Of a DNA stretch of 64,000 bases, positions 1 to 64,000 are shown in pieces. Origin of the DNA: Pantoea ananatis LMG 2665 (GTDB taxonomy: Bacteria; Pseudomonadota; Gammaproteobacteria; Enterobacterales; Enterobacteriaceae); the NCBI RefSeq assembly GCF_000710035.2, contig NZ_JMJJ01000010.1:310001-374000 (forward strand), read 5' to 3'. Every line of letters begins with the position of its first letter. Position 1 is the first letter of the stretch. The position numbers and the translations under genes were made by a program. The notes beneath the pieces are model-generated. The model was given only the letters and a program-made list of their open reading frames with translations. It did no database searches and was not told the origin of the DNA.

Positions 1-100
1 CTGTCGCAAACAGGGTAAAATCAGACGGTTGGTGATGCCTTCTGTTCAGGTTGCGGCCCATGCTATGCTGCTGATCCCAACACCTGCCATAGCGATGACC

Positions 101-2374
101 ATGAAAATTAAAGTGCCACATCTGGCGCACTGGGGCGCCTTTACCGCGGTAAGCGAAAACGATCGTCTTATCGGCTGCGAACCTTTTTTTGCCGACGCCG
201 ATCCCTCGCCGATGCTCAACACCATCCCGGAACTGGTTTACTCAGACAAACGTATTCGCCAGCCCATGGTGCGCCGCTCATGGCTGAAATCGCGCGAAAA
301 CAGTGACCGCACGCTGCGCGGACGCGAAGATTTTGTTGCCGTTGACTGGGAGACGGCGCTGGATCTGGTGGCCGAGGAAAATCGCCGTATTCGCGAACGC
401 TACGGTGCATCCGGCATTTTTAATGGCTCTTACGGCTGGTCATCGGCAGGGCGCGTCAACCATGCGCGTACCCTGGTGCGCCGCTTCTATTTCCAGGGCG
501 GCGGTGGCGTCGATCAGCAAGGCAACTACAGCTGGGGCGCCGCGCAGTTTTTCCTGCCTTACGTGATGGGCACCTACATGCCGCTGACCGGGCGCGTCAC
601 CGACTGGCCGCAGGTGGTGGAACATGCGGAGGTGTTTGTCGCCTTCGGTGGGCTGGCGTTAAAAAATGCCCAGGTGGCATCCGGCGGCGCAGGCCAGCAC
701 AGCCTGAAACCGGCGCTGGAGCAGCTGGCGGCAAAAGGCACGCCGGTGATTAACATCAGCCCGATGCGCGATGACTGCCCAGAGTTTGTTAACGCGGAGT
801 GGATCCCGATCCGGCCGAATACCGACGTGGCGCTGATGCTGGCGCTCGGTTACGAAATTTGTCAGCGTGGTGCGACCGACGAGGCGTTTCTGGCCCGTCA
901 CTGCACCGGTTGGCCACAGCTACGTGCCTATCTGCTGGGTGAAAGCGACGGCATCGCCAAAACGCCCGGCTGGGCCAGCAAGATCACCGATATCCCGGCG
1001 GATCGCATTGTACATCTGGCCCGACAGCTGATCGGCAAACGCAGTTTTATCACCTGCTCCTATTCGGTCCAGCGCGCCCACCGTGGCGAACAGCCTTACT
1101 GGATGATGATCGCGCTCTCTTCCATGCTCGGGCAGCCGGGCTTGCCGGGTGCGGGCTTCTCGTTTGGACACGGCTCGATGAACAGCGTGGGCAATCCGCG
1201 TCAGGAAGGCCCCGCGCCGATGATGAGCACCGGACCGAACCCTTCAGGCCTGTCCATTCCGGTTGCCCGCATCAGTGACATGCTGCTCAATCCCGGCCAG
1301 CCTTATGGTTTCCAGGGCGAAACTCTGCACTATCCGGACATTCATATGGTGCACTGGGCGGGCGGCAATCCGTTTCACCATCACCAGCAGCTTAACCGGC
1401 TGGTGGAAGGCTGGCAGAAGCCGGATACCGTGGTGGTCCAGGATATCGTCTGGACACCTGCGGCGCAGATGGCCGATATCGTGCTGCCCGCCACCAGCAC
1501 GCTGGAGCGTAATGACATCGGCGGTTCATCACGTGACCGTTTTGTACTGGCAATGCACCAGGCGATTAAGCCGCAACATCAGGCACGGAACGATTTTGAT
1601 ATTTTTGCCGATCTCGCCGAGCGCTTAGGCTATCGCGATACCTTCACCGAAGGGCGCAACGAGATGCAGTGGATAGAACATCTCTACCAGCAATGTGCGG
1701 TGGCGCATGGCCGTCGTGGCATTCCTTTCCCTGAGTTCGGTGAGTTCTGGCAGCGTGGCTTTGTGGAGATCCCCGAAGGCGGTAAGCCTTATATCTTTAT
1801 GGAAGACTTCCGCGCCGATCCCGAGGCCAACCCGATACAGACTGCCAGCGGTAAGATTGAGCTGTTCTGCCAGACCATCGCCGACTACCACCTGGAGGAT
1901 ATGGCCGGGCATCCGGAATGGCGTGAGCCTCAGGAATGGCTGGGCGCGGCAGCCAGCCGTGATTATCCGCTACACATGATCTCCATTCAGCCATCGGACC
2001 GGTTACACAGCCAGTTAGATGCGACGGCTACCGTTCAGGGTAACAAAACCGCCGGGCATGAAACCCTGTATATGCATCCGCAGGATGCGGCGGTGCGGGA
2101 TATCGGAGACGGTGACGAAATTGAGGTCAGCAATGCGCGCGGCAGAATACTGGCCGGCGTGCGTCTGACCGAGGGGCTGAAGCAGGGCGTGGTGATCATT
2201 TCCACCGGCGCCTGGTTTGATCCCGGTTTTGGCAAAGCGTGGCAGCCGTTTGACCGGGCGGGCAACCCCAATGTGTTAACCCTGGATATCGGCACGTCAT
2301 CCCTGACGCAGGGACCCAACGCCATGAGTTGCCTGGTTGACATTAAAAAACATGTCGTTTGCACAAAAGCCTAA
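101..2374 (+). CDS. Molybdopterin-dependent S-/N-oxide reductase, BisC/TorZ/TorA family
   Basis: Member of the DMSO-reductase family that binds bis-MGD molybdenum and reduces S- or N-oxides such as biotin sulfoxide, methionine sulfoxide or TMAO. The N-terminal AHWG motif, the SYGWSSAG segment with the expected serine Mo ligand (the second Ser), the WAGGNPFHHHQQLNR block, the ADIVLPATSTLERND block and the C-terminal NPNVLTLDIGT block are all seen. From the ATG at 101 it is 757 residues, normal for BisC. ATG 95 and TTG 29 are in frame and no stop occurs back to base 2, so an upstream start, possibly with an export signal, cannot be excluded. No good Shine-Dalgarno is visible. The substrate cannot be assigned: the C-terminus resembles TorA, the overall length BisC/TorZ. 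Confidence 0.85.
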   Translation: MKIKVPHLAHWGAFTAVSENDRLIGCEPFFADADPSPMLNTIPELVYSDKRIRQPMVRRSWLKSRENSDRTLRGREDFVAVDWETALDLVAEENRRIRERYGASGIFNGSYGWSSAGRVNHARTLVRRFYFQGGGGVDQQGNYSWGAAQFFLPYVMGTYMPLTGRVTDWPQVVEHAEVFVAFGGLALKNAQVASGGAGQHSLKPALEQLAAKGTPVINISPMRDDCPEFVNAEWIPIRPNTDVALMLALGYEICQRGATDEAFLARHCTGWPQLRAYLLGESDGIAKTPGWASKITDIPADRIVHLARQLIGKRSFITCSYSVQRAHRGEQPYWMMIALSSMLGQPGLPGAGFSFGHGSMNSVGNPRQEGPAPMMSTGPNPSGLSIPVARISDMLLNPGQPYGFQGETLHYPDIHMVHWAGGNPFHHHQQLNRLVEGWQKPDTVVVQDIVWTPAAQMADIVLPATSTLERNDIGGSSRDRFVLAMHQAIKPQHQARNDFDIFADLAERLGYRDTFTEGRNEMQWIEHLYQQCAVAHGRRGIPFPEFGEFWQRGFVEIPEGGKPYIFMEDFRADPEANPIQTASGKIELFCQTIADYHLEDMAGHPEWREPQEWLGAAASRDYPLHMISIQPSDRLHSQLDATATVQGNKTAGHETLYMHPQDAAVRDIGDGDEIEVSNARGRILAGVRLTEGLKQGVVIISTGAWFDPGFGKAWQPFDRAGNPNVLTLDIGTSSLTQGPNAMSCLVDIKKHVVCTKA

Positions 2375-2459
2375 GGTTCACACGGCTGGTTACATTTTGC
2401 AGGCATCTGTTGCGTTTCAGTCGTGGCGAAAAAGCCGTTTCGCTTGCTACATTCAGGAT

Positions 2460-2537
2460 CCCAGAGGTATTGATGGGTGAACATCAACTGATTTTTTCTT
2501 GATTACACCGACCTGCGTAGATACGCAGGTTTTTTTT
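2460..2537 (+). ncRNA. OmrA/OmrB-family small RNA, copy 1
   Basis: The 5' end CCCAGAGGTATTGATGGGTG is nearly identical to the conserved first 20 nt of E. coli OmrA/OmrB, the seed that pairs with mRNAs of outer-membrane proteins and regulators. The 3' end carries TTACACC, then an intrinsic terminator with arms CCTGCGTA/TACGCAGG and eight T. About 78 nt. A possible -10 (TACATT, 2448-2453) lies at the right distance from C2460. OmpR activates these genes in E. coli; the upstream stretch 2384-2420 could hold OmpR sites but I cannot prove it. In E. coli omrA and omrB are adjacent and next to aas; here they are separated by a penicillin-binding protein gene and lie upstream of mdtABC-aas. Confidence 0.9.
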
Positions 2538-2650
2538 GCCCGAAATAAACTGAACGATAACGAACTGATACACAGTTTTCCTGTGTTTTTACCCGTGCTT
2601 TGATTATAACTGCGGGATTGACCTCTTTTTTTTAAGCGCAGCGGATTGCC

Positions 2651-4390
2651 ATGCCCCGGATTAAAAAATTACTGGGTAAAGACCAGATAAAAGCCCCGTT
2701 TAACCCTTTCCGTTTTCGCCTGATCTGCCTGGGCGTATTTACCTGCATGGCTGTTCTGCTGGTGCGCGTCGCCGATTTGCAGTTTCTTAATCAGCCCATG
2801 CTGGAACACGAGGCCGATCAGCGCTCGCTGCGTACCGTTACGCTTCCCACCAGCCGTGGCACCTTACTGGATCGCAACGGCGAAGCGCTGGCGCTCAGCG
2901 TACCGTCGCGGGATGTCATCGCCGATCCGCAGCGCGTGCTGGAGAGCAACCCTGATTTTACCAGCGCCAAGTGGGCCTATCTGGCGGCGGCATTAAGTAT
3001 GCGACCAGAAGAGGTCGCGGCGCAGATCACCGCTAACCCCAAACGTCGTTTTCTCTATCTCGGGCGCAAAGTCGAACTGGGGATCGCCAAAGATATTAAA
3101 GATCTGAAGCTTAAAGGCATCAGTGAAGTCTACGACGACAGTCGCTTTTATCCGATGAGCGAAGCCTCCGCGCCGCTGATTGGTATTGTGGGGGCCGATA
3201 ACACCGGCCTCAACGGACTGGAAAAGGGCTTTGATAAAGTCCTGCAGGGCCAGCCGGGCAAAGAAGTCTACCGGCAGGATGCGGCAGGGAATATTATCGC
3301 GATGATTAGCTATCAGCCGCCCACTCAGCCGCCGACGGTGCAGCTCAGCATTGATAAATTCAGCCAGTACACGCTCTACAGTAAGCTGCGCGATGGCGTA
3401 CTGTTAAACAAGGCGGATTCGGGCGCGGCGGTGCTGGTTAAAATTGATACGGGCGAGATTCTGGCGATGGCCTCTTATCCCTCGTTCAACCCCAACAACT
3501 ATCAGGGGGCAACCCCGGCGCAGATGCGCAATACCGCCATTAATGACAGCTACGAGCCGGGTTCAACGGTAAAACCCCTTGTGGTGATGGAAGGGCTGGA
3601 ACGTCACCTCGTCCGGCCGGATTCCGTGCTGGATACCACGCCTTACCGGGTTAACGGCCACCTGATCCGCGACGTCGGTCACTGGCCGCGCCTGACCATG
3701 ACCGGCATTCTGCAAAAATCGAGCGACATCGGCGTTTCTCATATCGCCCTGGCGATGCCGGCGGAAGCCCTGGTGAACACCTACTACGCATTTGGCCTGG
3801 GTAAACCCACCGGGCTGGGGCTGACCGGCGAAAGCGTGGGGTATTTCCCGCTGCACCGCACGCGCTGGGCCGATATCGAACGCGCGACCTTCTCCTTCGG
3901 CTACGGTTTGCGCGTCACGCCGCTGCAAATTGCCCGTGAATACGCCACGCTGGGTTCCTATGGCGTTTATCGTCCGCTGTCGATCACCAAAGTGACGCCG
4001 CCGGTGCTGGGCAAGCAGGTCGCTAACCCGGAAACGGTCAAGGAAGTGGTGCACATGCTGGAAAGTGACGTCCTGCCGGGCGGTACCGGACTGAAAGCGG
4101 CGGTACCGGGCTATCGACTGGCCACCAAAACCGGTACGGCTGAAAAGATGGGCAGCAGCGGGAAGTATGACGGCGGTTATGTGAACTACACCGCAGGTAT
4201 TGCCCCGGCCAGCCATCCTGAGGTGGCGCTGGTGGTAATGATTAACCATCCTACCGCGGGCGATCACTTCGGTGGCTCCGTAGCCGCGCCGGTGTTCGGT
4301 AACATCATGGGGCCGGTGCTCAAGCACATGAATATTGCCCCGGATGCCATCTACAGCAAGCCTGTGGATAGCGGTTCAGATAAATCCTAA
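2651..4390 (+). CDS. Class B penicillin-binding protein, FtsI (PBP3) paralogue
   Basis: Septal-type peptidoglycan transpeptidase of 579 residues, close to the 588 of E. coli FtsI. It has a short cytoplasmic N-terminus, one membrane anchor (about residues 24-44), a dimerisation domain with the SRGTLLDRNG motif, and a penicillin-binding domain with Ser305-T-V-Lys308, Ser357-S-D359 and K493-T-G-T. All catalytic motifs are intact. It stands alone, not in the mraZ-ftsL-ftsI division cluster, so it is probably a second copy like the Salmonella PBP3SAL used under special conditions such as low pH; that role is inference. It is bracketed by two Omr sRNAs. The start has a weak Shine-Dalgarno. A TATAAC -10-like element lies near 2605. 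Confidence 0.85.
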   Translation: MPRIKKLLGKDQIKAPFNPFRFRLICLGVFTCMAVLLVRVADLQFLNQPMLEHEADQRSLRTVTLPTSRGTLLDRNGEALALSVPSRDVIADPQRVLESNPDFTSAKWAYLAAALSMRPEEVAAQITANPKRRFLYLGRKVELGIAKDIKDLKLKGISEVYDDSRFYPMSEASAPLIGIVGADNTGLNGLEKGFDKVLQGQPGKEVYRQDAAGNIIAMISYQPPTQPPTVQLSIDKFSQYTLYSKLRDGVLLNKADSGAAVLVKIDTGEILAMASYPSFNPNNYQGATPAQMRNTAINDSYEPGSTVKPLVVMEGLERHLVRPDSVLDTTPYRVNGHLIRDVGHWPRLTMTGILQKSSDIGVSHIALAMPAEALVNTYYAFGLGKPTGLGLTGESVGYFPLHRTRWADIERATFSFGYGLRVTPLQIAREYATLGSYGVYRPLSITKVTPPVLGKQVANPETVKEVVHMLESDVLPGGTGLKAAVPGYRLATKTGTAEKMGSSGKYDGGYVNYTAGIAPASHPEVALVVMINHPTAGDHFGGSVAAPVFGNIMGPVLKHMNIAPDAIYSKPVDSGSDKS

Positions 4391-54855: not shown

Positions 54856-54940
54856 GCCGAAGTGGCGAAATCGGTAGACGCAGTTGATTCAAAATCAACC
54901 ATCGAAAGATGTGCCGGTTCGAGTCCGGCCTTCGGCACCA
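54856..54940 (+). tRNA. leuX: tRNA-Leu (anticodon CAA)
   Basis: 85 nt with acceptor arms GCCGAAG/CTTCGGC, an encoded CCA end, GGTTCGAGTCC T-arm, a long variable arm and the anticodon loop TTCAAAA. The sequence matches leuX except in the variable arm. It is a common integration site; the integrase that follows uses this side, so the 3' end is the likely attachment site (attL). Confidence 0.97.
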
Positions 54941-55126
54941 TCGGAACATCAATAGACGTCAACGGACGTCTTTTTTTGTGCCTGAAATCCAGTATTTACC
55001 CATCATTCCCGTTATATTAACTCTCTCAAGGTCAACCGACTTCAACGTACATCTACCAACAGATGTTGGTATAGATGATGGTATTTCCGGTTCGATAATG
55101 CTTGTACCAACAGGGAGGGGATAAGC

Positions 55127-56371
55127 ATGGCGTTAACAGATATCAAAGTCAGAACAGCCAAGTCAACGGATAAGCAATACAAACTGACCGATGGCAATGG
55201 TATGCATCTTCTCGTCCACCCAAATGGTTCAAGATACTGGCGTCTGCAGTACCGCTATGGCGGAAAGCAAAAGATGCTGGCTTTAGGTGTTTACCCTGAC
55301 GTATCTCTTGCAGATGCTAGAACTCGTCGCGATGACGCTCGTAAGCTTTTAGCAAACGGCATCGATCCGGGAGATAAAAAGAAAAATGATAAGATTGAGC
55401 AGGAGGAAGCACGTACTTTTGAGCAGCTTGCTATTGAGTGGCATGCCACAAATAAAAAGTGGTCAGAAGAACATAGTCGACGAGTGCTTAAAAGCTTGGA
55501 GGACAATCTCTTCCCTGCCATAGGTAAGCGGAATATCGCTAATCTTAAAACTAGAGACCTGCTGGCCCCAATCAAAGCGGTAGAGTTGTCGGGGCGACTT
55601 GAGGTGGCATCCCGTCTACAGCAGCGCACTACTGCAATTATGAGATATGCCGTTCAGAGTGGTTTACTTGATTACAATCCCGCGCAAGAGATGGTTGGTG
55701 CTGTCGCTTCGAGTAACCGTCAGCATAGACCTGCGTTAGAGTTGAGACGTACTCCCGAACTGCTTCAGCGCATTGATAGCTATACCGGCAGGCCTTTGAC
55801 TCGTCTTGCCGTTGAGTTAACCCTCCTTGTCTTCATCCGCTCCAGCGAATTGCGTTTTGCTCGTTGGTCTGAGATCGATTTTGAAACATCTATGTGGACG
55901 ATACCTGCAGAGCGGGAAGCTATTGAAGGGGTAAAGCACTCACAGCGTGGCTCAAAAATGCGCACACCTCATCTGGTGCCACTTTCTCGTCAGGCGTTAG
56001 CAATCCTTAAACAGGTACATAAGCTTAGTGGCGATCGTGATTTTGTTTTCATTGGCGATCACGACCATCGCAAACCGATGAGCGAAAACACAGTGAACAA
56101 GGCGCTGCGCGTTATGGGTTATGACACGAAGGTTGAAGTTTGTGGGCACGGTTTCAGGACAATGGCTTGTAGTTCATTGATTGAGTCTGGATTGTGGTCG
56201 AGGGATGCAGTGGAACGGCAAATGAGCCATATGGAACGTAACTCAGTACGTGCAGCTTACATTCATAAGGCTGAGCATCTTGATGAGCGGCGACTAATGC
56301 TGCAGTGGTGGGCTGATTTTTTGGATGCGAATAGGGAAAGCGAAGTTAGTCCTTATGACTTTGGCAAGTAG
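55127..56371 (+). CDS. intB: P4-type tyrosine integrase
   Basis: 414 residues. N-terminal Arm-binding domain (LTDIKVRTAKSTDKQYKLTDGNG), then a core domain and catalytic residues: Arg in FIRSSELRFARW, His-x-x-Arg in GHGFRTMA, and Tyr in RAAYIHKAEH. GGGAGGGG precedes the ATG. It lies 186 bp after leuX and points away from it, the standard arrangement for islands of this type. It appears intact. Confidence 0.93.
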   Translation: MALTDIKVRTAKSTDKQYKLTDGNGMHLLVHPNGSRYWRLQYRYGGKQKMLALGVYPDVSLADARTRRDDARKLLANGIDPGDKKKNDKIEQEEARTFEQLAIEWHATNKKWSEEHSRRVLKSLEDNLFPAIGKRNIANLKTRDLLAPIKAVELSGRLEVASRLQQRTTAIMRYAVQSGLLDYNPAQEMVGAVASSNRQHRPALELRRTPELLQRIDSYTGRPLTRLAVELTLLVFIRSSELRFARWSEIDFETSMWTIPAEREAIEGVKHSQRGSKMRTPHLVPLSRQALAILKQVHKLSGDRDFVFIGDHDHRKPMSENTVNKALRVMGYDTKVEVCGHGFRTMACSSLIESGLWSRDAVERQMSHMERNSVRAAYIHKAEHLDERRLMLQWWADFLDANRESEVSPYDFGK

Positions 56372-56473
56372 TCTAATTCCTGATGCTTGCTATGTTTGAA
56401 TTCGAAAAACCGGCTTGAAGTATAATCCATACTTTTTTATAACTGTATTATTCAGGCGACTGTGAGGTGCACT

Positions 56474-56707
56474 ATGAAAACTTTCGATGCCCAACTTGCG
56501 ATGAGCATTGTATCGCACTCAACTGGAGGTTTTAGTTACGACACTCTTGCTAGGGCTATGATTTCTAAGGATAAAAATGAAAGCCCTGACGTGCTTCTTG
56601 AATCATGTCGAGACTTTTGTTTATCCCTTGAGGAAAAAGGCATTTTGAGACGATGCCAAAGATGTTCTCATTCTCAAGATGAGTATTTCGAGTACATTCT
56701 CCACTAA
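56474..56707 (+). CDS. Small protein of unknown function, island gene
   Basis: 77 residues from the ATG at 56474, which has GAGG 7 bp upstream; a GTG four codons earlier is possible. Two halves: a helical N-terminus (FDAQLAMSIVSHSTGGFSYDT) and a C-terminus with CRDFC and CQRCSHS cysteines that could bind zinc. It has its own terminator and a possible -10 (TATAAT near 56418). Between the integrase and the dpd genes. Not recognised; a regulator is possible but not shown. Confidence 0.55.
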   Translation: MKTFDAQLAMSIVSHSTGGFSYDTLARAMISKDKNESPDVLLESCRDFCLSLEEKGILRRCQRCSHSQDEYFEYILH

Positions 56708-56710
56708 CAT

Positions 56711-56742
56711 AAGACCCTAGGAAAAATTTCTAGGGTCTTTTA
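56711..56742 (+). terminator. Terminator before the dpd genes
   Basis: Perfect AAGACCCTAG / CTAGGGTCTT stem (56711-56720, 56730-56739) with a T tail, 3 bp after the small gene's stop. It works on both strands by symmetry. Confidence 0.85.
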
Positions 56743-56806
56743 ACTCCGTTCTTGTCATCCCCCTTTTTCTACTGTAGCTTGTGTAGCACGATTCGGGGGG
56801 GCGATT

Positions 56807-57763
56807 GTGAGCAACATCAATTTAATAACTACATGTACAAATGGAAAACACTGCGGTAGCGGAGATATATTGAGTCTGAGTCAATTTTCATCAGGTCTAA
56901 TCTCTTCAAGTGTGCTAGTGAATTCTTGGTGTAATGCTCTGAATGAAGCTATATCTACATCTGCAACTGTATGTGCAGAGGATCTTTATAAAGGTGGGCA
57001 CTGGGCGACAGCTAAAGCGATATTAAATGAATATCCTATTGATTTATGGGTGCTTTCTGCTGGATTGGGCCTCCTCCACCACAAAGACAATGTAGTACCG
57101 TATAAAGCGACATTTGCTGTTGGATATGACGAATCAATACCTTTGTATTCTCAAGAATATGTAGGGAAAAGTTTTCATAGAACATGGTGGAAAGAAATAA
57201 CTAATAGATCAATTTTTAGATCTAAGCATCCTACATCTATTTTAGAATTAATGAAAAAAAACAAAAAAGACTATTATATTATTTGCGGTTCCCCAGATTA
57301 TATTAATGCAATTGAATTGGATATTATTAATGGTATTGAGTATTTGATTGATGCAAAAAAACAACTGCTTATTGTAACTTCCAAAAAAATCAATGACAGG
57401 TTGACTGCATATCTTTTCAAAACCAACCAAAATATGGCTCTGTGGCTAGGATGCAATATGCTCATGCTTAATATCAGTGTGGCAAAATACATTGTTAAGG
57501 AATTTACGTCAAAACAACTCAATGATTTAAATGAGTTATCTCACAAGTTAATTGAAGAACTCAAGGAGTTACCTGAGCGTGAAGTGAAAAAAGGAATTCG
57601 TCGTACCCCGGAGGAAGTTAAGTTTTTCATTTTAAAGCTTATGGAACAAAATCCTAGTATCAGTGCAACACATGCGTTGCGTGAATTTCGTGACTCGGGA
57701 AATTCATTTGAGGAAAAACGTTTTCGGGCTGAGTTTAAGGTCCTGAGAGAGGCTAAACCTTAA
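56807..57763 (+). CDS. dpdC: Probable DpdC, YaaA/DUF328-like
   Basis: 318 residues from a GTG preceded by a run of seven G. Residues 81-106 (WVLSAGLGLLHHKDNVVPYK, then ATFAVG) match the DUF328/YaaA signature LSGLYGLLxPLDLIxPYRLEMG. In Salmonella Montevideo DpdC turns DNA preQ0 into the amide form (dADG) and is a DUF328 protein. A C-terminal helical segment (about 265-318) is extra. The gene is much more AT-rich (with AAAAAAC runs) than dpdA and dpdB, suggesting another origin. It precedes dpdA by 52 bp. Confidence 0.72.
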   Translation: MSNINLITTCTNGKHCGSGDILSLSQFSSGLISSSVLVNSWCNALNEAISTSATVCAEDLYKGGHWATAKAILNEYPIDLWVLSAGLGLLHHKDNVVPYKATFAVGYDESIPLYSQEYVGKSFHRTWWKEITNRSIFRSKHPTSILELMKKNKKDYYIICGSPDYINAIELDIINGIEYLIDAKKQLLIVTSKKINDRLTAYLFKTNQNMALWLGCNMLMLNISVAKYIVKEFTSKQLNDLNELSHKLIEELKELPEREVKKGIRRTPEEVKFFILKLMEQNPSISATHALREFRDSGNSFEEKRFRAEFKVLREAKP

Positions 57764-57815
57764 TGCTACTTGCTTGGGTTTCATGGTAGAATCCCCCGTT
57801 TTTTGAGGCTTTGCA

Positions 57816-59087
57816 GTGGTGTCACAGGAGAGTAAGTTGTCGAAGCTAAAGTATTTTTTCCCTGATAGTCAGGATTTTATCGATCCCAGTTTCGACTTCT
57901 TCCGCGAAACGCGAAACGAACATCGCGTGCGTCAACGTGACGATCATTATCCGCATGAGGTTTTTCCTCATCCTTACGATGGTATGCTGGTTTCTAAAGC
58001 CGTAGTAGATGGTCTTGGCGGTGGCGAGAGCAAATATACGCGTGCCCAACGTTTGCGTTACTTCCGTAATGGCATGAAGCACTTCTTCCGCTTGCCGGAA
58101 AATATGGAAACTATGGGGGATTGCGGAGCCTTCACTTATGTTAACCAAGACGTCCCGCCATACCGTGTGGAAGAGGTGATTGAATTCTACGAAACCTCCC
58201 GCTTTAACCATGGCGTTTCTCTCGATCATATCGTTTTTGGCTATGAGAAACCTGGTGAGGTATTCAGTGGCGAAGTGTTGGCTGAATGTCGCCGACGCCA
58301 GGATATTACGCTGACCTTGGCGCAAGAGTTTTTGAACAAGTCGCAAAAGTCCTGTTTCGCTGCCTTTGGCGTTGCACATGGATGGAGCAAAACCTCCTAC
58401 CGTCAATCTGTAGAGGCCCTGCTGGCCATGGGATACAAAAATATCACCATGGGAGGGATGGTGCCTTTGAAAACGGTGCAGATCCTTGAGACTCTCGAAG
58501 AGATTAAACCTCTGCTGAAAAGTGATACACGTGTTCACTTGCTTGGTATTGCCCGTCCAGAGAGTTTCGCCGACTTTATCAAGTTTGGTGTGACCAGTAT
58601 TGACTCGACTACACCGCTTCAGCAGGCCTTCAAAGATCGGAAAAACAACTATCATACGCCTGATGGCCCGGCCTATACCGCTGTGCGTGTCCCTCAGTTT
58701 GATGCGAATCCAAGTTTGAGTCGCAAAATTAAATCTGGCGTGATTGATCAGGATATTGCGCGGCATCTTGAAAAGGATGCCATGAATGCCCTGTTCGAAT
58801 ACGATAAAGGGGCTTTGTCCCTTGAGAAGACGCTGGAAATAGTACTGGCATATGAACGTCTTCATTCGGGCGAGAAAGAAGCCGAAAAAATCCGTGCTGA
58901 CTACGAACGTACGCTGGGTGATCGTCCATGGAAGCAATGCAAGTGCAATATCTGCAAGGCCATTGGCATCAACGTTATCATTTTCCGCGGCGCAGAACGC
59001 AACCGTCGCCGTGGTTTCCATAATATTCAGGTGTTGTACAACCGTTTACAGCACACATTGTCATTACGCTCAGAGGAACTGTCATGA
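57816..59087 (+). CDS. dpdA: DpdA, TGT-like DNA guanine transglycosylase
   Basis: 423 residues. It keeps the tRNA-guanine transglycosylase features: Asp102 in MGDCGAFTY (general acid/base), Asp263 in SIDSTTPL (nucleophile), and a zinc site C375-x-C377-x2-C380 with His402. DpdA exchanges guanine in DNA for preQ0. Two GTG codons at 57816/57819 follow TTTGAGG; a TTG at 57837 with a better AGGAGA site would drop seven residues. The stop overlaps the dpdB start (ATGA). The closest known system is the dpd cluster of Salmonella Montevideo. Confidence 0.9.
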   Translation: MVSQESKLSKLKYFFPDSQDFIDPSFDFFRETRNEHRVRQRDDHYPHEVFPHPYDGMLVSKAVVDGLGGGESKYTRAQRLRYFRNGMKHFFRLPENMETMGDCGAFTYVNQDVPPYRVEEVIEFYETSRFNHGVSLDHIVFGYEKPGEVFSGEVLAECRRRQDITLTLAQEFLNKSQKSCFAAFGVAHGWSKTSYRQSVEALLAMGYKNITMGGMVPLKTVQILETLEEIKPLLKSDTRVHLLGIARPESFADFIKFGVTSIDSTTPLQQAFKDRKNNYHTPDGPAYTAVRVPQFDANPSLSRKIKSGVIDQDIARHLEKDAMNALFEYDKGALSLEKTLEIVLAYERLHSGEKEAEKIRADYERTLGDRPWKQCKCNICKAIGINVIIFRGAERNRRRGFHNIQVLYNRLQHTLSLRSEELS

Positions 59088-60211
59088 GTGAGTATCGTGT
59101 TCCCGCCCTGCGAATCCGACAGGGTGAGGAGAGGCAACTCTACAGCCTTGCGATAGAAGGTAAACAAATCAGCAAGATTGCAGCGATTTCACGTATCCGT
59201 CGCGGCGAAGAGAGTTTGGTTGGTTATCAGCGTCCAGAAGTACGTAACCATATTCGCGAAATTCAGCGCTACATTGAGAGCGCAAATCCGATGATACCAA
59301 ACCCGGTGATTATCGCTTTTGATAAGCGTGTGCGTTTTGAACCGCTTACAGATAATGGCGATATGGGACATCTGGTAATACCTTTCTCCGAAGATAAGGA
59401 TTTTGAGAAGCCAGGTTTTATTGTGGATGGTCAACAACGTACCGCTGCTTTGCGGGATGCAGAAATCGACTCGTTCATGATGCCGGTCTCCGCTTTCATT
59501 GCTAATGACGCGGAAGAACAGCGTGAACAGTTCATGCTGGTTAACTCCACAAAACCGTTGCCCAAAACGTTGTTATACGAACTGGCACCGCATACCCACG
59601 GTCGTTTGCCATCCGATCTGCAAATGCGTAAGTTTCCTTCACTGCTGACTCAACGACTGAACTTCGGCGAAGGTCCACTTGCAGGGCGCATCAAAACGGC
59701 GACCAATCCTGATGGGGTTATTGCTGACAACTCGATGATCAAAATGATCGATGCCAGTCTTCGTGAGGGAGCATTGTATCGCTTCCGTGACCCCGCGACA
59801 GGGTTGGGGGATGAAGGGAAGATGGTGAAACTGCTGAATAACTTCTGGTCTGCTGTGGAAACTGTGTTTACTGATGACTGGGATAAAAAGCCGCGCTATT
59901 CCCGCTTGTTACATGGCGTTGGTATTCTTGCGCTTGGCAGCTTGATGGATGAAATCGATCAGGTTCATCAGGACTATAAAGGTGAACCAGGCTGGACTGA
60001 GATCCCTTCCTATACTCGTTTTGTCGAAGAGTTAAACCGTATTAAGCCGCTTTGTGCATGGAGTAGTGGCGTGTGGAACTTCGGCACAGATGTTGATGGT
60101 CAGCCTATTGTTCGTAAATGGAATGAACTGCAAAATCTCTCAAAAGATATATCTGTGGTTACTGATTATCTGGTAGCCAATTATATTAAAGTAGCTAATG
60201 CTGACATTTAA
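59084..60211 (+). CDS. dpdB: DpdB, DGQHR-domain protein
   Basis: 375 residues of the DndB/ParB-like DGQHR family: the motif FIVDGQQRTAAL with DGQQR at 115-119, followed by INST-like FMLVNSTKPLP. In Salmonella DpdB is needed with DpdA to insert preQ0 in DNA; its activity is probably nucleotide hydrolysis coupled to DpdA, which is not proven here. Translationally coupled to dpdA by a 4-bp overlap. A terminator follows. Confidence 0.88.
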   Translation: MSEYRVPALRIRQGEERQLYSLAIEGKQISKIAAISRIRRGEESLVGYQRPEVRNHIREIQRYIESANPMIPNPVIIAFDKRVRFEPLTDNGDMGHLVIPFSEDKDFEKPGFIVDGQQRTAALRDAEIDSFMMPVSAFIANDAEEQREQFMLVNSTKPLPKTLLYELAPHTHGRLPSDLQMRKFPSLLTQRLNFGEGPLAGRIKTATNPDGVIADNSMIKMIDASLREGALYRFRDPATGLGDEGKMVKLLNNFWSAVETVFTDDWDKKPRYSRLLHGVGILALGSLMDEIDQVHQDYKGEPGWTEIPSYTRFVEELNRIKPLCAWSSGVWNFGTDVDGQPIVRKWNELQNLSKDISVVTDYLVANYIKVANADI

Positions 60212-60226
60212 AATTTAAGTTTAATC

Positions 60227-60264
60227 TAAAGCCTCATATTGTTAAATGGAGGCTTTATTTTTAA
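60227..60264 (+). terminator. Terminator after dpdB
   Basis: TAAAGCCTC (60227-60235) / GAGGCTTTA (60249-60257) stem and T-rich tail, 15 bp after the dpdB stop. It divides dpdCAB from dpdE. The remaining 60265-60510 is AT-rich without a gene and probably carries the dpdE promoter. Confidence 0.85.
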
Positions 60265-60510
60265 TGAAATAATTTCACGGTGAAACTAGTGGGTATGTAG
60301 ACAAGGGGTGTTTAACTTTCTTTAATTTGACGGTATTAACTGATTGATTCAAATGTATAAATTTTGTGGCCGAGATCACCTACCATTTACGTAGTGGCCC
60401 GACCTCTCCCTCCTGCAGATTTGCTTCATTGGCCCATTCGCCGTATATTCATTCTAGATTTATTCGTTTATTGCGAATTACTTTCACTTCCTGACTGTTA
60501 AAAAATCATA

Positions 60511-63500
60511 ATGACTACACATACTGGCGTGTTTTCTGAAGGTGACCTGGTAATATCGCCATTATTTGACGGTATTGCTAAAATTGTGAGTATTCTCTCT
60601 ACTGAGCGTGCCGAGATTGCCTGGTTCTACTCTCCTTTAGAGGAGGAGATTAACCGTCAGGAGGTGGATATCCGCGCACTGACGGCAGCGACGCTCTATG
60701 AGGAAAGCACCGTTTATTTTCGCTCTCCTGATAGCGGCATCTGGTGCCGAGGCCGCTATGGCGGGCCCCGACCGGATAATAAGCACTTACTGATTATTCG
60801 CTCTGGCGATCACGCGGTCATTGATCTAGCAGAGATGTACTATCCCAACTATGGGCAGGGGCAGGCGATGAACCCGGCTCATTTTCTGGCGGCCCGTTCA
60901 AATGATGCTCCGTTTTTCTATCCACTACGTGAGCGGTTTGTCAGCGCGTGGATTAAGCAGCGTGCAGCATGCCGCTCTATGTCTTCATTAATCAGTAGTC
61001 GTGTCGAGGTAGAGCCTCATCAGATCGCTGTTGTACGCCGAATATTGCAGGACCAGAATCCCAAGTATTTATTGGCGGATGAAGTGGGGCTCGGCAAAAC
61101 CATTGAAGCTGGGTTAGTCATTCGAGAACATATTCTGGAATGCAAAAGAGAAGCCCGCGTATTAGTGGTGGTGCCGCCGGTATTGCAAGGGCAATGGACG
61201 CAGGAACTGGTTGATCGCTTTGCACTACAGGAAGTAATGAGCGGAGGACGGAACAACCAGATCCGTCTGTACTCTCCGGAAGAACTTTGTCAGCCAGAAC
61301 TGATCGGCTGGAAGCCCACAATGGTGGTAATCGACGAGGCCCATCAATTAGCCCGGCAGGCATGGGTCGATGATGAAGACGAACAGGCACAATATGTCGC
61401 GATGACTGAGTTGTGCCATCAGGCACGCATTGTGTTGCTCCTGTCTGGCACGCCGATGCATGGTAGCGAGCGTCACTTTCTGGCTATGCTGCACTGCATA
61501 AACCCACAGGCGTGGCCACTTAATGCAGTGGGAATCGAAAAATTTATGCGCCGCGTGGTAGAGCGCGAGCGTATTGGTGGAATTTACAGTTCCCTGACCC
61601 CTGAAACGCCAAATGGGGTACTGGAAGAGGTTGTCGAAGAGTTACGTCAGCTTTTTGCCGATGATGAGCAACTGCAGGCGCGGATTGATGTGCTGAGTCC
61701 TCTGGTCGACTTTTTTGCCCCTGATGAAAGCGAAGAGCGAACGGCGGCCATTCTGGCATTACGCCAGTGGATCGGCGAGCGCTACCGCCTTTTTCATCGC
61801 TTGCTACGTAACCGGCGTGAAGATCCCGCATTGGAATATCTCTTTCCTGGACTGGCTGGCCTGGAAAAATGTGTCTGGCCCGTCTCCTCGACCGAGATCA
61901 CGCTGGATGAAACCTTTGATGCCTGGCGTGCCGCCGCCTTGCGCAATCCCGTGCAGCACAAACATCTGGATGCCACGACGCTTGATGAATGGGTCGACGC
62001 TCTGTTTCTCAACCCGCTGGTGATGTCCCGCCAGGCTAAAAATGCACTGGCAAACGGGACTGTCAGCGAAGAAGAGTCCAATTTTCTTGAGCAGATTATT
62101 GAAACGTCTCAGCAAGAGCAGAAAGCCAAAGATGCGGCGCTAATGAAGGCGCTGACTGGCTGGTTTGAAAAATATCCTGATGGCAAAGCGGTCATCTTTT
62201 GCGGTGAAAGCTCTGAAGCTGCCTTCCTGTCTACCAAACTGCAAATTCAGGCCCCCTGGGCGGTGGTTCGTCATTCGCCGGACCTGCGTAAGCAGAGCGA
62301 ACTTCAGGATGACAGTTGGCAGGTACTGATCTGTGACAGACGCGGTGAAGACGGACTGAACCTGCACGGAAAAAATCGTCTTGCGGTCCACTATAGTCTG
62401 AGCCGCGACTTTAACCGTTTTGAACAGCGGTTGGGGCGCTTTAACCGCTATTCTGGAAATCTACGAGGCGTGAAGCCTGTGAAAAGCCTGATTTTGCTGC
62501 CGGAACGTGATGGGCTACGTGCGGACTGGGTGAAATTATTGGACGAAGGCACGGGGTTGTTTCATCGAAGCGTAGCCAGCCTGCAATTTGTTCTGTCTGA
62601 ACAATTAGAGATGGTATGGCGTGATTACGCCGGGCAGGGGCTTGCCGTCTTCCATGAGGCGCAACAGCGCCTTTCGGGGGAAAACGGCTTTATCGCCCAA
62701 GAGCGTAAGCGCGTTCTGGCTCAGGAAAACTTGTTATCTATGGAGCAGGAGGTCATTGCTGCACGCGAGTTTTCTGAGCAACTGGCCGAATCTGAAGATA
62801 AGGCTGAAGCGCAGGCAAAAGATATGCTGACCTGGATGCGTAAGGCATTAGGGTTTAAGCGGGAGCAATATCCTGAAGGAGGATTTCGTCTGCGCTTCGA
62901 GCGTGGCGAATATCAACGGCAAACGCTGGTGGACGTAGGAACGTTTATTGATAATTGCCTGCTTGGTCTCGATTTTTCAGAAGGATACCCCCCTTCCACA
63001 GCGTTGATGAGTTTGTCTCGAACGGAAGACGGTAACTACAAACACGTTTACCCCTTGCGCTATGGGCAGCCTTTCGCCGAAAACGTATGGCAACTGATGC
63101 AGAGCGATCCGCGAGGAGCCAGTATGGCGCTGCTTCGGGTTCTCTCCCCGGCTGTTTCGATGAAGCAACCGCGCACCTGGTTCCATTTCCAGTGGCTGAG
63201 TGAAGCTCAGGTTGAAGGTGAAAACCAGCTAGCCGCGCAGCGTCGTGGTGATGAGTGCTTCAGCCCGGAGGTTCACAATTTCTGGCTGGATGACGGTGGT
63301 AAAGAGGCGGATCCGCAGGTCGTTGTCTCCCTGCTGGATAAACCTTACGATGAAGAGGGCAACAGCTTGTTCCAAGATATCAATCTTCGGGAAGAGGTCT
63401 GGATGCGAATGCCGGATTGGTTTGAGCCGCATAACTGGAAAGAAACCGTACTCGCTGCTGAGGAGCAGGCCCGGCGAAACGTGGCTGCTCAATATGGAGA

Positions 63501-63567
63501 TCGTCCCGTCCGCCATCAATTGCTTGCAATGAAGGCGATTATTCTGTGTACCCGCGACATGCTGTAA
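60511..63567 (+). CDS. dpdE: DpdE, SNF2-like helicase
   Basis: 1018 residues. Helicase motif I GLGKT (193-197) in LLADEVGLGKTIEAGL, DEAH (275-278), motif III LLSGTPMHG, and C-terminal motif VI QRLGRFNRY near 638-646. The family matches SNF2/RapA-type ATPases, with a long C-terminal extension. In Salmonella dpdE is among the genes needed for restriction of unmodified DNA and not for modification. A separate transcription unit from dpdCAB is likely because a terminator and 300 bp intervene. Confidence 0.86.
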   Translation: MTTHTGVFSEGDLVISPLFDGIAKIVSILSTERAEIAWFYSPLEEEINRQEVDIRALTAATLYEESTVYFRSPDSGIWCRGRYGGPRPDNKHLLIIRSGDHAVIDLAEMYYPNYGQGQAMNPAHFLAARSNDAPFFYPLRERFVSAWIKQRAACRSMSSLISSRVEVEPHQIAVVRRILQDQNPKYLLADEVGLGKTIEAGLVIREHILECKREARVLVVVPPVLQGQWTQELVDRFALQEVMSGGRNNQIRLYSPEELCQPELIGWKPTMVVIDEAHQLARQAWVDDEDEQAQYVAMTELCHQARIVLLLSGTPMHGSERHFLAMLHCINPQAWPLNAVGIEKFMRRVVERERIGGIYSSLTPETPNGVLEEVVEELRQLFADDEQLQARIDVLSPLVDFFAPDESEERTAAILALRQWIGERYRLFHRLLRNRREDPALEYLFPGLAGLEKCVWPVSSTEITLDETFDAWRAAALRNPVQHKHLDATTLDEWVDALFLNPLVMSRQAKNALANGTVSEEESNFLEQIIETSQQEQKAKDAALMKALTGWFEKYPDGKAVIFCGESSEAAFLSTKLQIQAPWAVVRHSPDLRKQSELQDDSWQVLICDRRGEDGLNLHGKNRLAVHYSLSRDFNRFEQRLGRFNRYSGNLRGVKPVKSLILLPERDGLRADWVKLLDEGTGLFHRSVASLQFVLSEQLEMVWRDYAGQGLAVFHEAQQRLSGENGFIAQERKRVLAQENLLSMEQEVIAAREFSEQLAESEDKAEAQAKDMLTWMRKALGFKREQYPEGGFRLRFERGEYQRQTLVDVGTFIDNCLLGLDFSEGYPPSTALMSLSRTEDGNYKHVYPLRYGQPFAENVWQLMQSDPRGASMALLRVLSPAVSMKQPRTWFHFQWLSEAQVEGENQLAAQRRGDECFSPEVHNFWLDDGGKEADPQVVVSLLDKPYDEEGNSLFQDINLREEVWMRMPDWFEPHNWKETVLAAEEQARRNVAAQYGDRPVRHQLLAMKAIILCTRDML

Positions 63568-63579
63568 TCGGAAGCAACC

Positions 63580-64000
63580 ATGGAAAACCAGTGGCAACAA
63601 CTTCGCGCGACTCTGAACGGAGAACACAGCGAACGCGACGGGCTGAGAGGGCAGTTTTTTAACCGCCTGCTTTACTGTCTGGATGATGTGCAGGCGGGAG
63701 AATGCGACCGCCTCCACGCATTTTATGATGCTCTGCAATGCGCGCGGGCATTTGGGTTGACGCCGTTAAGGCTGCCGTATCGACACATTATCGAAGGCGT
63801 AATGCTCCAGCATTTTGGTTTGAGACGGGATCGTGACTACCCAGGTGAACTGCTCCTGACGCGCGAAGCGGAAGAGATTGATTCCTCTCTCTTACTCGTC
63901 TGGAAAGGCGAGCAGCGCCGTTTTCTGGAAACCCCACCGCTGGATGTCCTTTTGCCCACTGTGCTCAACGATCTGTGTTATACGCACTACACATCAGCAG
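63580..64000 (+). CDS. Dpd-cluster protein, 5' part only (possibly DpdF)
   Basis: An ATG at 63580, 12 bp after the dpdE stop (preceded by GGAAGCAACC), opens a frame that stays open for all 140 codons to the window edge. The N-terminus (MENQWQQLRATLNGEHSERD) is soluble, with FFNRLLYCLDDVQAGECDRL helices; no domain is recognised in this part. In the Salmonella cluster other restriction genes follow dpdE; dpdF is my guess from order only. Confidence 0.65.
   Translation, partial: MENQWQQLRATLNGEHSERDGLRGQFFNRLLYCLDDVQAGECDRLHAFYDALQCARAFGLTPLRLPYRHIIEGVMLQHFGLRRDRDYPGELLLTREAEEIDSSLLLVWKGEQRRFLETPPLDVLLPTVLNDLCYTHYTSA

Follow-up and report, generated by a model that had tools for sequence, protein, structure and literature searches.

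In the dpd systems of bacteria DpdA inserts preQ0 into DNA, DpdC converts it to ADG and the products of dpdD-K act in restriction (PMC6159554, PMC11888242), and it is from this literature, by homology, that functions are assigned to the genes considered here. Listings of dpd islands run to tens of thousands (PMC11888242), and the island of Salmonella enterica serovar Montevideo (S. Montevideo) 'integrates near tRNA-Leu' (PMC6159554).

The stretch of DNA analysed (the window) is 64,000 nucleotides long, positions 310001-374000 of contig C11 of the Pantoea ananatis LMG 2665 assembly, and the contig extends 14.7 kb past its end. Judged by its sequence, the region starting at leuX is a complete and intact dpd island with all frames open, and it belongs to a known class of bacterial defence system. 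The explanation that best fits the findings, and one that can be held with high confidence, is a complete dpd restriction-modification island at leuX of an Enterobacteriaceae host that is part of a modular family of islands and has a likely regulator in a small gene, orf77. Its features within the window are the following.

54856-54940, plus strand: leuX, tRNA-Leu(CAA), the integration site (ARAGORN; Rfam tRNA).
55127-56371, plus strand: tyrosine integrase of the island (Pfam Arm-DNA-bind_3, Phage_int_M and Phage_integrase; HxxR...Y motif).
56415-56443, plus strand: predicted sigma70-like promoter of orf77, TTGAAG, 17 nt, TATAAC (consensus match; conserved in a 15-island alignment).
56474-56707, plus strand: orf77, a 77-aa ORF between int and dpdC, candidate dpd regulator (predicted winged helix).
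56711-56739, plus strand: terminator-like hairpin past orf77 (alignment; stem retained in most islands, sequence varying).
56752-56780, plus strand: predicted sigma70-like promoter of dpdC, TTGTCA, 17 nt, TAGCTT (conserved in the 15-island alignment).
56807-57763, plus strand: dpdC (PADLOC DpdC, 512 bits; weak Pfam match to DUF6884), the preQ0-to-ADG step being assigned by homology.
57837-59087, plus strand: dpdA, DNA-guanine transglycosylase (NCBIfam, PADLOC, PDB 7ui4), with a TTG start; a longer GTG frame runs from 57816.
59084-60211, plus strand: dpdB, DGQHR/DndB-like (NCBIfam, 476 bits against a cut-off of 300; Pfam DndB).
60212-60510, plus strand: dpdB-dpdE spacer; homology to every other-class island stops at or before the dpdB stop.
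60511-63567, plus strand: dpdE, SNF2-like helicase, with which the restriction block begins (NCBIfam, 960 bits against a cut-off of 500).
63580-64000, plus strand: 5′ part of dpdF (NCBIfam), which continues on the contig.

The initial annotation had recognized the layout of a dpd cluster, with a DGQHR-domain gene and an SNF2-like helicase near dpdA, and these are DpdB and DpdE by the scores given above, though the DGQHR motif of DpdB reads DGQQR. Both DpdB and DpdC are adjacent to DpdA (PADLOC, NCBIfam). Absent from that annotation were dpdC (56807-57763), the start of dpdF (from 63580) and the 77-aa ORF (56474-56707). The DpdA-DpdK profile search that it proposed matched a family model to each of the 11 Dpd proteins: DpdC through PADLOC, the other ten with scores beyond the equivalog cut-offs of NCBIfam. 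The extension of the contig, proposed with it, recovered the rest of the cluster: the end of the window cuts inside dpdF, and the remainder of that gene is followed by dpdG, H, I, J, K and D and then by queD on the opposite strand. Window and extension together hold 11 of 11 dpd genes in full with open reading frames, including every one of the eight restriction genes dpdD-dpdK, all of which score over their NCBIfam cut-offs. Helicase motifs were found as well. That the cluster lies at leuX agrees with the published integration site (PMC6159554).

The DpdA product scores 576 bits with the NCBIfam DpdA model, for which the cut-off is 200, and 678 bits with that of PADLOC, and a near full-length, near-identical alignment of 900 bits makes it a close relative of PDB 7ui4, the solved DpdA of S. 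Montevideo, a DNA-guanine transglycosylase. Both TGT aspartates and the zinc site with which it was credited at the outset are present within this alignment, DCGAF and IDST holding the catalytic pair and CxCxxC...H the zinc ligands. The TGT fold is common to these proteins and to the tRNA enzymes of the queuosine or archaeosine type (Pfam TGT, 33.6 bits), and the gene might on that count be one of the latter. Grouping with the tRNA enzymes, the outcome that the initial annotation had set against its own proposal, is nevertheless not what was found: the equivalog cut-offs for tRNA TGT are missed widely (26.3 against 306.75 and 20.3 against 350) and that for DpdA is far exceeded, the nearest structure is the DNA enzyme 7ui4, and a separate tRNA TGT is encoded in the same genome (C5:93185). 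The scores and this separate host enzyme rule out a tRNA-type TGT, the probability of which is close to nil.

At the start of dpdA, over codons 1 to about 25 (57837-57915), synonymous variation among 14 islands is far below that in the rest of the gene, with the lowest 20-codon window at 0.10 against a mean of 0.32 and none of 5000 permutations as low; a translation-start signal or other nucleotide-level element may be responsible.

FolE, QueD (two copies), QueE and QueC are all encoded by the host genome, FolE, QueE and QueC outside the island and the second QueD on it, and together with the dpd genes found this means that a pathway to preQ0 and a complete dpd set are both present. In the mechanism proposed, preQ0 would be made by the host FolE-QueD-QueE-QueC pathway with the second QueD supplied by the island, DpdA with DpdB would exchange guanine in DNA for preQ0, and DpdC would hydrolyse the inserted preQ0 to ADG. 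Unmarked DNA would then be restricted by DpdE-K and DpdD, a set made up of four helicase/ATPase proteins and one of PLD type, together with accessory proteins. The presence of the Dpd enzymes and of a pathway to preQ0 suggests that host DNA carries 7-deazaguanines and resists some restriction enzymes; as the published density of modified bases in S. Montevideo DNA is reportedly low, the resistance expected is only partial. An island that is present yet silent or inactive in its Pantoea host is improbable, as it would have to be reconciled with intact frames in 11 of 11 dpd genes, a predicted dpdC promoter kept in 15 islands and a complete precursor pathway.

An integrase at leuX preceding the dpd genes had also been proposed, and the tRNA-Leu(CAA) and the tyrosine integrase listed above bear this out. 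The 3′ end of leuX contains TTCGAGTCCGGCCTTCG, which in reverse complement is the 17-bp repeat of SGI2, a clade II island of S. Montevideo (PMC6159554), and homology to the nearest relatives breaks off at the leuX end. No second leuX-end repeat was found in this assembly, in which the contig ends 198 bases past the queD ORF, and the right end of the island probably lies in the gap beyond. In genome G153 the leuX-end repeat recurs 23.2 kb from leuX, shortly past queD and just before another integrase, a spacing that suggests the size of the complete island unit. Neither G153 nor G235 has a relative of the Pantoea integrase between leuX and orf77; in G153 about 0.2 kb separate leuX from the orf77 that follows it, with an integrase relative just past the far repeat, and the islands of these two genomes may have moved in trans or in tandem. 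This genome lacks a locus that lies to the right of leuX in a congener. At leuX itself a congener carries different cargo (L098:1378-7438), which specifies a cytosine-methyltransferase-like and a GHKL-ATPase-like protein, as read from translations alone. A search of the island for riboswitches and other RNA returned only the tRNA plus one sub-threshold match.

Among 382 family genomes orf77 is present in seven, and these are exactly the ones with DpdA over its cut-off. Its dN/dS against relatives is about 0.07-0.2 (the E. coli 2273-PO3 pair was left out). The protein stays below the cut-offs of all Pfam, PADLOC and NCBIfam families, and a PDB profile search gave no useful match; its AlphaFold model (pLDDT 82) has the order helix-helix-helix-strand-strand, for which the best Foldseek matches are Fur/PerR winged helices, a weak resemblance (E 0.005, probability 1.0, TM about 0.7) to a very common fold. 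From this predicted fold, the company it keeps and its constant place beside dpdC, orf77 most likely encodes a DNA-binding regulator of the dpd locus. Excisionases, however, are likewise small winged-helix proteins, and orf77 adjoins the integrase, so a role in the integration module, as excisionase or otherwise, has to be weighed. Such a role is unlikely, though it keeps some weight. The gene is retained where no related integrase adjoins it, as on plasmid pPOL9A and in G153 and G235, and its divergence tracks that of dpdC: percent identities of orf77 and dpdC are 47 and 46 in G153, 69 and 69 in G235, and 67 and 65 in Serratia, where that of int is 42. Because orf77 follows dpdC rather than int and persists away from a related integrase, a dpd regulator is the likelier of the two.

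Across related islands the genes dpdA-dpdB and queD are nearly invariant, and the restriction block that they enclose (60,213 to 78,061 in extended coordinates) is replaced whole. In 13 related islands orf77-dpdC-dpdA-dpdB mostly show 87-98% protein identity, G153 and G235 diverging in orf77 and dpdC, and the genes from dpdE to dpdD sort into distinct blocks with about 21-63% identity, on the opposite strand in several islands. When 5426 complete E. coli genomes were searched, the modification module was matched in 161 and mostly present in 159, and searches with the dpdE alleles divide the latter into 46, 54, 58 and 1 genomes, which add up to exactly 159, one allele being inverted. Class B islands have, in the place of dpdI, a 263-aa protein (L052:15437-16228) with no detectable similarity to DpdI.

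Defence genes are often quick to diverge, and since nothing in the island has diverged more than the restriction proteins it could be argued that they merely evolve faster than dpdAB and that no cassette has been exchanged. Against this, nucleotide homology to other-class islands ends at the dpdB stop (60211-60213) and resumes at the queD 3′ end (78061-78066, extended coordinates), and incongruence runs both ways: the Pantoea locus and G235 share 99% identity in dpdA and 41% in dpdE, and E. coli 600468 and G153 share 98% in dpdE and 90% in dpdA. In AU tests on the dpdAB tree monophyly is rejected for the restriction classes A and C but not for class B (p 0.31), and on the dpdJ tree the grouping of the Pantoea locus with G235 is rejected. 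Rapid divergence in place of exchange is ruled out by these identities, breakpoints and tests, with very little probability remaining to it. The dpdAB tree is weakly resolved (one of nine branches starred), as is expected if the dpdAB core recombines too.

Further steps in homology lie within the island. Compared with G235, the island is 59-73% identical across dpdC and becomes 93-100% identical where dpdA begins. Another step is at dpdI|dpdJ: identity to E. coli 94-3024 is about 90-96% before this boundary and about 75% after it, and the E. coli strains 94-3024 and 2273-PO3 are about 55% identical to each other up to it and about 92% beyond. The steps thus put joints at the gene boundaries dpdC|dpdA, dpdB|restriction block, dpdI|dpdJ and dpdD|queD, and we infer that homologous recombination through the conserved flanks may be the mechanism of exchange. 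In this family of islands dpdA-dpdB, with queD, make up a near-constant core, and the block from the dpdB stop to the queD 3′ end is swapped as a cassette.

A broader reading, offered tentatively and with belief in it a little short of even, is that dpd is a cassette-exchange system in which one near-invariant mark-writing core serves at least four swappable restriction blocks, one of them reversed, with a joint at dpdI|dpdJ and with readers that diversify under a constant mark. As part of the same reading orf77 would be a twelfth, hitherto undescribed component that controls expression, as controller proteins do in classical restriction-modification systems. Phage countermeasures perhaps drive the diversification of the readers. 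Exchange of the restriction block was not described in the literature searched, keeping in mind that the primary dpd papers may have noted it.

The dpd system itself is described, and the possible importance of the present case lies in a conserved DNA mark combined with swappable restriction machines across relatives. The pattern of exchange predicts two protein units, dpdE-I and dpdJ-K-D, and natural pairs of islands are available for asking whether different restriction blocks recognize the same mark. From a regulatory perspective orf77 is a small conserved gene, a likely regulator that existing tools leave unnamed.

Among the closest known systems is the island at leuX in E. coli 94-3024 (NZ_CP009106.2, L015), which has the same order int-orf77-dpdC-A-B-E-F-G-H-I-J-K-D-queD. 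In the half of the island that is inside the window, the part that could be matched has 89.6% nucleotide identity; protein identity is 89-94% for dpdE-I but only 79, 82 and 70% for dpdJ, K and D. The system is therefore known, as the initial annotation had said of its class. As to its suggestion that this locus may be a variant, the gene content is standard and common to E. coli at the same site, and islands differ in which allelic restriction block they have. The inverted islands of Kluyvera georgiana, Cedecea, Enterobacter pulveris, E. coli SCU-109 and plasmid pPOL9A have 87-98% protein identity in orf77-dpdC-A-B, whereas their restriction genes lie on the opposite strand, with identities of 21-55%. 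The last of these, an IncY plasmid of Enterobacter cloacae (L016), carries its full dpd set between insertion sequences, without integrase or queD. The dpd island of E. coli EC812A1 has beside it a Qat anti-phage system (L055:29301-33647), whose QatC is QueC-like, so that two neighbouring defence systems both have queuosine-pathway proteins.

In phages the deazaguanine mark serves escape from restriction, and their DpdA systems are not known to have the bacterial restriction block. What they share with the Pantoea locus is a DpdA transglycosylase that puts 7-deazaguanines into DNA (PMC6884629). The S. Montevideo dpd island (Thiaville et al. 2016, in PMC6159554 and PMC11888242) has the same 11 dpd genes and the same tRNA-Leu site as the Pantoea island, and the near full-length match of DpdA to 7ui4 is to its enzyme; the host species differs.
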